Part shown: positions 24,538-60,582 of the stretch, piece after piece
Numbering within the stretch: position 1 is the first letter of the stretch
Layout of the letters: each line of letters begins with the position of its first letter
Assembly (NCBI GenBank): GCA_031292625.1
Contig: JARLGU010000019.1
Span: 372,001-436,000, forward strand
DNA from: Capsulimonadaceae bacterium
GTDB taxonomy: Bacteria; Armatimonadota; Armatimonadia; Armatimonadales; Capsulimonadaceae
Direction of reading: 5' to 3'
Length of the DNA: 64,000 nt
The notes under the pieces: generated by a model
What the model saw: only the letters and a program-made list of their open reading frames with translations
Told to the model about the DNA's origin: nothing
Databases searched by the model: none
Made by a program: the position numbers and the translations under genes

Positions 24538-24641
24538 CCCTGTGCTGTCACCGATTGCGCGGGGATTTTTGAAGAGTGCGGAGGTAATCGTACTAGAAAC
24601 ACGCATCGCGCAACCGCGTCGCTCCCTGAAACGAGAAGCTA

Positions 24642-24857
24642 AGAGCGTGTGTAGAACTTGTAAGACGGCTCCCCGGCCGCCGTGGCCGCTTTTGATAGAG
24701 GGCCGTCACAGCGCTTTCACTGCTTCACGATGTGCGCTGCAATCGGCCCCGGGCGGCAAAAGGCTGTACGCGTGTTGACGAGGCATCGTAAATCACCGCC
24801 GTGAACGAGGCGCGGGCAAAAAATTGCCCCGGCGGCACGAGCCGTCCTGAATCTTTC
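24642..24857. repeat. Dispersed TIR-flanked repeat element, short copy (one 93-bp-type unit)
   Basis: Copy 1 of an element also found at 60139-60555. An 8-bp inverted repeat GACGGCTC (24664-24671) / GAGCCGTC (24839-24846) bounds 183 bp. The left 89 bp align without gaps to copy 2 (about 84% identity by eye), then one unit of about 89 bp (from 24753). A hairpin GGGCAA-AAAA-TTGCCC lies where copy 2 has CCGGTC-CGT-GACCGG. Outer flanks AGAGCGTGTGTA (left) and CTGAATCTTT (right) are shared. No transposase. A 78-codon + strand frame across it is not convincing. It may be a MITE-like element or a structured RNA. Confidence 0.8.
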
Positions 24858-25028
24858 TCGCAATACGCCCGTCGATTACACACAACTCAAAGATGCTAAG
24901 CTCGCTTCCCCTACCCCCTATACAACGGGGTTTGGCAACCGCCCGAGATCGCGCTTTGCCGATCGATGGCCCGGCGCACAGGCGGCAGACAGAAGGTCGC
25001 CGTCATTCTTTAGGTCCTCAGGATCCGC
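24858..25028. other. Gene-free stretch between repeat copy 1 and the prepilin-like gene
   Basis: I see no coding frame. A short imperfect inverted repeat (ACCCC...CGGGGT, about 24910-24930) without a T-run could be a weak terminator for the prepilin gene. Confidence 0.3.
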
Positions 25029-60101: not shown

Positions 60102-60134
60102 ACAGGGACCGGCGATTGCCGGTCCCTGTTTTTG
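60102..60134 (+). terminator. Rho-independent terminator of dacB
   Basis: A perfect 12-bp stem (ACAGGGACCGGC/GCCGGTCCCTGT), 4-nt loop, followed by TTTTTGT. Confidence 0.93.
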
Positions 60135-60138
60135 TATC

Positions 60139-60555
60139 AGAGCGTGTGTAAAAGATCGAAAGGTCTTGTAAGACGGCTCCCCGGCCGCCGTGGCCGTTTT
60201 TGATTAAGGGGCGACGCATCGCTTTCACCGCTTAACGATGTGCGCTGGAATCGGACGCTTGCGGCAAAAGGCCGTACGCGGGTTGACGACGCATCGTAAA
60301 TCACCGCCGTGAACGAGGCGCGGGCAAGACCGGTCCGTGACCGGCGGTCGTTGGCGGCAAAGGGCCATACGCGGGTTGACGACGCATCGTAAGTTGCCGC
60401 CGTGAACGAGGCGCGGGCAAGACCGGTCCGTGACCGGCGGACGCTGGCGGCAAAGGGCCGTACGCGTGTTGACGAAGCATCGTAAATCACCGCAGTGAAC
60501 AAGGCGCGGGCAAGACCGGTCCGTGACCGGCGGCACGAGCCGTCCTGAATCTTTA
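60139..60555. repeat. Dispersed TIR-flanked repeat element, long copy with three 93-bp tandem units
   Basis: Copy 2 of the element at 24642. TIRs GACGGCTC (60172-60179) / GAGCCGTC (60537-60544) enclose 373 bp. After the 89-bp left part come three tandem 93-bp units (60261-60353, 60354-60446, 60447-60539), each with a CCGGTC-CGT-GACCGG hairpin. The size difference to copy 1 (190 bp) equals two units plus 4 bp. A minus-strand frame reads through three 31-residue repeats, but the 4-bp difference frameshifts it in copy 1. It sits right after the dacB terminator and 38 bp before the GH99-like gene, whose promoter may lie in it. Confidence 0.9.
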
Positions 60556-60582
60556 CCGCTCGCATCTCAAGCGAAGTCCAAA

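Follow-up and report, generated by a model that had tools for sequence, protein, structure and literature searches.

What is the repeat-built stretch near the right-hand end of this window (the whole 64,000 nucleotides of a Capsulimonadaceae contig analysed here), in which 8-bp inverted repeats, GACGGCTC and GAGCCGTC, bound 373 bp? A sequence-only reading had described a head, three near-identical 93-bp tandem units and a related element at 24.6 kb with the same head and one unit, and had left two explanations side by side: a MITE-like element that expands by unit duplication, and a modular structured RNA. The description itself was accurate. TRF calls the 93-bp unit at 60252-60533 with 3.0 copies and 90% matches, and the 24.6-kb element is present, with a tail as well (Table 1). 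The 8-bp repeats, which that reading took for terminal inverted repeats (TIRs), are however inner arms; the left end of the element lies outside them and its conserved part runs on to about 60579. Taken as a whole, inferred steps included, the family is very probably a non-autonomous DNA transposon (MITE) with a modular body.

Modules and copy number

The head, tail and unit core were sought as patterns with at most 3 mismatches in the whole genome (5.77 Mb in 65 contigs, 96% complete). The head gave 71 + 57 = 128 matches, the tail 96 + 62 = 158 and the unit core 95 + 52 = 147, and every reversed-pattern control gave 0. The repeat structure is thus genuine and far above chance, and the dispersed family that had been suspected exists. 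A genome BLASTN with the window copy as query returned 54 matches among the candidates scored. The family comprises about 150 or more scattered copies. Thirteen of the 130 contig ends fall in or at element copies (on C2, C9, C10, C20, C21, C23, C32, C33, C44, C53 and C56), so that the assembly undercounts the element, and draft genomes of the same lineage will undercount the family in the same way.

Module mapping on 2.0 Mb taken around the copies shows a constant order of left TIR, head, n 93-bp units, tail and right TIR, with a total length of ~250-750 bp. The unit number varies, as had been claimed, from 1 to 6: among simple BLAST clusters n is 1 in 82, 2 in 20, 3 in 8, 4 in 8 and 6 in 1, and of 54 unit-to-unit spacings 53 measure exactly 93 bp. 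Beside the simple clusters there are truncated copies, one cluster with no recognised unit, and head-to-tail arrays of whole elements. The latter occur at C10:60044-60665, C20:306457-307054, C23:7-631 and C43:159384-159815, and on the C46 contig at 489613-490042 and 506247-506664, often with no outer TIR at the junctions between elements.

Table 1. Features of the two element copies in the window (H, head; U, unit; T, tail)
Feature	Position	Strand	Remarks
Window copy 1, whole element (H-U-U-U-T)	60140..60579	+	End alignment of ~140 left and ~158 right copies
Left flanking target triplet TCA	60137..60139	.	TNA type; right triplet without match in this copy
Left TIR GAGCGTGTGTAA	60140..60151	+	Type A
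Small hairpin AGATC-GAAA-GGTCT	60153..60166	+	Adjoins left TIR
Head module	60172..60259	+	Opens with inner inverted-repeat arm GACGGCTC (60172-60179)
Terminator-like hairpin CGGCC-GCCGT-GGCCG, then TTTTT	60182..60201	+	Inward-facing
Unit 1	60260..60352	+	93 bp
Unit 2	60353..60445	+	93 bp
Unit 3	60446..60538	+	Internal-type end GACCGGTCCGTGACCGGCGG where AAAAAATGCCCCGGCGG is usual
Tail inner inverted-repeat arm GAGCCGTC	60537..60544	+	
Right end of foreign type, ...TTTACCGCTCGCATCTCAAGCGAAGTCC	60545..60579	+	Family F / IS701-like; type-A right TIR absent
Window copy 2 (H-U-T)	24643..24888	+	Both type-A ends, GAGCGTGTGTAG ... TTACACACAACTC
Left target triplet TAA of copy 2	24640..24642	.	Right AAA at 24889-24891, one mismatch

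Ends, target sites and the missing transposase

Flank alignment places the true ends outside the 8-bp arms, in the form TNA|GAGCGTGTGTAA ... TTACACACACTC|TNA at most intact copies, the flanks being conserved past the arm on the left (...TNA|GAGCGTGTGTAANNGATCGAAAGGTCTTGTAA-GACGGCTC) and on the right (GAGCCGTC-CTGAATCTTTCTCGCAATACGCCAGTTTATTACACACACTC|TNA...). A check for target-site duplications (TSDs) and empty sites, which the sequence-only reading had proposed, was positive for both. Of the 49 copies in which the left and right ends are both well conserved, 20 carry the same 3 bp on either side of the element, where 5.9 are expected (0 of 2000 permutations reach 20), and in the same copies no other TSD length shows a clear excess. 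A larger set contained 21 matching triplets in 74, against 6.9 expected and a permutation maximum of 14; matching triplets are thus found in only about 28-41% of copies having both ends. C is favoured at position -4 and G at +4, which makes the target C-TNA-G.

The flanks were also joined across each insertion and sought in the examined sequence. Two copies have an empty sister site with a single TAA, the filled site having two. The insertion at C48:28329 sits in a second dispersed repeat, family F (...CGCTTTGTAAGAGAAG...), with about ten uninterrupted relatives, and that at C24:36678 in a dispersed repeat of the type of another family, G (...GTAGTAAGAGGCG...), with six. Because empty sites carry one TAA and filled sites two, insertion was precise and duplicated the TAA, and from the TNA duplication and the empty sister sites it follows that the element is a MITE: it has TIRs, a TSD, empty sites, a high dispersed copy number and a short body without coding capacity. 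The MITE-like explanation therefore stands, and the intergenic placement and missing coding signal described below agree with it.

The element would have been mobilised in trans by a DDE transposase whose insertions duplicate a TNA triplet, an enzyme that may now be lost or may lie in unassembled sequence. There are six DDE_Tnp_1 matches in the genome, of which the four scanned resemble the IS701, IS1380, IS1634 and IS1182/IS5-like types; near all six, type-A ends were absent, and four were checked for TIRs of their own as well. PF13340 (DUF4096) and PF13586 (DDE_Tnp_1_2) are absent from the genome. A whole-genome search for GAGNGTGTGTAA found 55 places; those away from known copies proved to be members of the family or of family G, apart from a few isolated matches, and none was an element carrying a gene. 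Since no gene-carrying element has matching ends, the partner transposase is missing. One apparently intact IS701-family IS, with a 345-aa transposase and the TIR AGGACTTTCGCTT, lies at a contig end (L121:1-1118, at the start of C41); it was rejected as partner, its TIR matching family F and not the type-A ends.

I take GAG-type ends and a TNA target duplicated over 3 bp to fit the IS1031 group of the IS5 family. Both the TNA duplication and the GAG-type ends were found here; no transposase gene flanked by these TIRs was found in the 96%-complete genome. Because no autonomous element has such ends, the assignment draws solely on TSD and end type: the mobilising transposase was probably of IS5 type (IS1031-like), but the family is not counted as a proven IS5 member. 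The element is like IS5-family and PIF-Harbinger-type transposons in its TNA target, 3-bp duplication and GAG-type ends, but it has no transposase gene, nor does the genome hold a matching-ended element that has. Canonical Harbinger elements produce 3-bp TSDs (PMC12730594).

Window copy 1, which raised the question, has the GAGCGTGTGTAA-type TIR at its left end only. Besides the missing autonomous partner and the limited share of matching triplets, it counts against the transposon explanation that this copy lacks a matching right TIR, a TSD and the right-hand hairpin. The hairpin, terminator-like and on the minus strand, is missing because unit 3 keeps an internal-type junction. The right end (...TTTACCGCTCGCATCTCAAGCGAAGTCC) resembles ends at three other places (C23:73825, C38:65927 and C39:14228), and the AAGCGAA(A)GTCC within it is similar to the TIRs of L121, the IS701-family element, and of family F. 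Because this mismatched end is common to another MITE family, window copy 1 is probably a recombinant that would have taken its right end from another MITE family with a common tail module, which is the simplest reading. Such sharing of modules between MITE families occurs, as is shown by family G, which has the same TIR type and tail module with a different body.

Family F is about 250 bp long (GGACTTTCGCTTTGTAAGAGAAGATGAGG...AGCAAGCGA(A)AGTCC) and lies at C24:42843, C33:101117, C2:9207, C19:87579, position 75758 of the C46 contig and elsewhere (L047, L067, L009, L030, L093). An IS701-family IS has a TIR that matches its ends, and family F is likely to be an IS701-driven MITE. Family G, also a MITE, with type-A TIRs, lies at C19:5940-6195, C58:129918-130175, C62:18990-19275 and L137.

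Hairpins, coding potential and genomic placement

Both inner arms belong to hairpins followed by T-runs. The head hairpin, CGGCC-GCCGT-GGCCG then TTTTTG, has the variants TTGCC/GGCAA in 7 copies and CAGCC/GGCTG in 2; the tail hairpin, on the minus strand, is TGCC-GCCGG-GGCA then a T-run. The two covary: double-changed cells number 13, where shuffles give 1.3, a count that none of 500 shuffles attains and that all slid controls fall short of. In the head arms (n = 132) all but 10 of the 396 outer pairs form (386, with 359.5 expected and a shuffle maximum of 371); the corresponding tail count, which is mixed with reverse-complemented head arms, was set aside. A terminator scan flags the head hairpin, although two hits in that scan against 1.2 expected are not significant alone. 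These observations suggest putative inward-facing intrinsic terminators, one per end, which would shield the insertion from outside transcription, although the covariation could instead reflect DNA-level palindromes bound by the transposase.

Could the hairpins belong to something larger? The RNA explanation would make the family a modular structured non-coding RNA (a riboregulator, tandem aptamers or a ribozyme) amplified genome-wide, with the units as repeated RNA domains. It can point to the GC-rich hairpins, to the covariation of the two local ones and to the 24.6-kb copy, which folds somewhat better than shuffles (z = -2.07). Yet Rfam gave 0 matches at the gathering threshold, with only unrelated weak hits at E<=5; the long-range consensus fold, 97% of whose cells are paired, covaries no more than shuffles do; and window copy 1 folds no better than its shuffles (z = -0.86). 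The strongest co-varying unit columns are neighbouring haplotypes, not Watson-Crick pairs, the orientation of elements to genes in tandem gaps is not fixed (51 same, 34 opposite), and the TSDs and empty sites demonstrate transposition. A large folded RNA was rejected on Rfam, covariation and fold z, the two short hairpins alone covarying, and the RNA explanation as a whole, largely refuted, retains very little probability.

A protein repeat would account for some features of the unit. Its length is three times 31 (93 = 3 x 31), only 2 of 152 units fail to keep the minus frame open, and old polymorphisms concentrate at one codon position, as might be expected if each unit were a 31-codon repeat of a small protein encoded by the minus strand. 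However, distinct unit mutations, whether synonymous, nonsynonymous or stop-making, all occur at neutral expectation in all six frames, the head carries a stop in the minus frame in many single-unit elements, and Pfam gave no match over cut-off in the element. The neutral substitution pattern and the Pfam null led to the rejection of a coding repeat, which I find scarcely credible.

Although about 80% of the examined sequence is coding, 139 of 140 mapped elements are intergenic by simple codon-usage gene calls; another 13, which lie at the edges of contigs or of the stretches examined, were set aside. Relative to element-free gap length, convergent gaps are over-represented (33 against 17.2 expected, p = 2e-4) and divergent gaps under-represented (21 against 40.6, p = 2e-4). 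Tolerance of insertions behind genes and their removal from promoters are both compatible with this placement. I propose that because the terminators isolate the insertion it would be tolerated behind genes, and selected against in promoters.

The same placement, together with the covarying terminator-like hairpins on both arms, might also be read as the mark of a DNA-binding or terminator repeat that selection has kept and spread (REP/BIME-like or insulator-like), transposition being its origin only. Purifying selection against promoter damage explains the enrichment in convergent and depletion in divergent gaps equally well, though, and there are 0 copies among 290 relatives, and window copy 1 has lost one of its hairpins; I regard such a repeat as unlikely, with a modest claim to being right. 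Less probable still is that the head-unit-tail core is the cargo of two transposition systems, one with type-A TNA ends and one with IS701-like AAGCGAAAGTCC ends, which would spread paired inward terminators as genome-wide bidirectional transcription insulators, their effect tuned by unit number.

Two smaller structures lie near the left end. Many copies, window copy 1 among them, carry beside the left TIR a small hairpin ATC-GAAA-GGT with a GNRA-type loop, and by eye its stems look compensatory (AACC/GGTT, ATTC/GGAT). The upstream gene, for a PBP4-like carboxypeptidase, has a strong intrinsic terminator of 12 pairs at 60102-60129, directly before window copy 1.

Known systems, age and unit-number change

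The non-autonomous transposon described here most resembles two known systems, a likeness of architecture. BOX elements of Streptococcus pneumoniae are built as boxA-boxBn-boxC, with TIRs and TSDs, 125 copies in one genome and nested insertions with other repeat families, and in S. suis a given middle unit can have its end modules exchanged (PMC3049150). Like BOX, the present family consists of composite intergenic repeats whose fixed ends enclose a varying number of tandem middle units, and it too has TIRs, TSDs and insertions nested with other repeats; unlike it, the middle unit is 93 bp long and rich in GC, almost every element has at least one, the ends are GAGCGTGTGTAA with TNA duplication, and the host is unrelated. 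The BrickBuilt MITE of Porphyromonas gingivalis has a leader, tandem direct repeats and a tail and is always intergenic; its 12-bp GAG-type TIRs are like those of the IS5-family ISPg1/ISPg9, and its 23-nt unit occurs in 1 to 22.8 copies in 19 elements with irregular TSDs (PMC4596501). The leader, repeat and tail plan, the intergenic position and the GAG-type TIRs are shared, whereas the present family has a longer unit of 93 bp, numbers ~150 or more elements, duplicates TNA consistently over 3 bp and has hairpins that face inward, and no partner IS was found for it. The family appears to work like BOX without being filed as a BOX element. It is a new BOX/BrickBuilt-like modular MITE family, none having been found described for the host lineage, and is notable for its size, its unusually clean 93-bp unit and its clear insertion evidence, which make it a case for measuring side by side how many units an element has, how modules are exchanged among MITE families and how far the terminators act.

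The family looks old, lineage-specific and dormant. Mean divergence of the head and tail regions is 23%, and because even the closest pair differs by 7% there is no sign of recent transposition. No copy was found by BLASTN in 30 relatives (no same-genus genome being among the genomes listed), nor by profile, with the best eight candidates per genome, in 290 other genomes of the phylum, which include the relatives searched by BLASTN. The exact tail pattern is absent from GTDB contigs and viral contigs, and phages and plasmids gave no BLASTN match. Absence from relatives, which had been held in advance to count against a mobile family, is literally true but irrelevant given ~150 copies in the home genome.

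Unit number would change through tandem duplication and loss and through recombination between copies. Neighbouring units of an element differ a little less from each other than units taken from different elements do (0.109 against about 0.12), and for 18 of 87 units the closest relative is found within the same element, where shuffles give 3.7 (maximum 10), so local duplication occurs. The suggestion that the element expands by unit duplication is borne out to that extent; most units are nonetheless closest to units elsewhere, and most multi-unit arrays predate dispersal or were mixed afterwards. Unit number has no clear lineage signal, since the single- or multi-unit label is near random on the head/tail tree (24 changes against 26.6). 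Within the unit, the centre (positions about 28-50, all copies) is usually GAGGCATCGTAAATCACCGCC between conserved flanks, and its alternatives are a few very different linked haplotypes, such as GTGCCTTCGTCATTCACC, GCGGCCTTGTCGATCGAC and GATTGCTCGTATGCCGCC.
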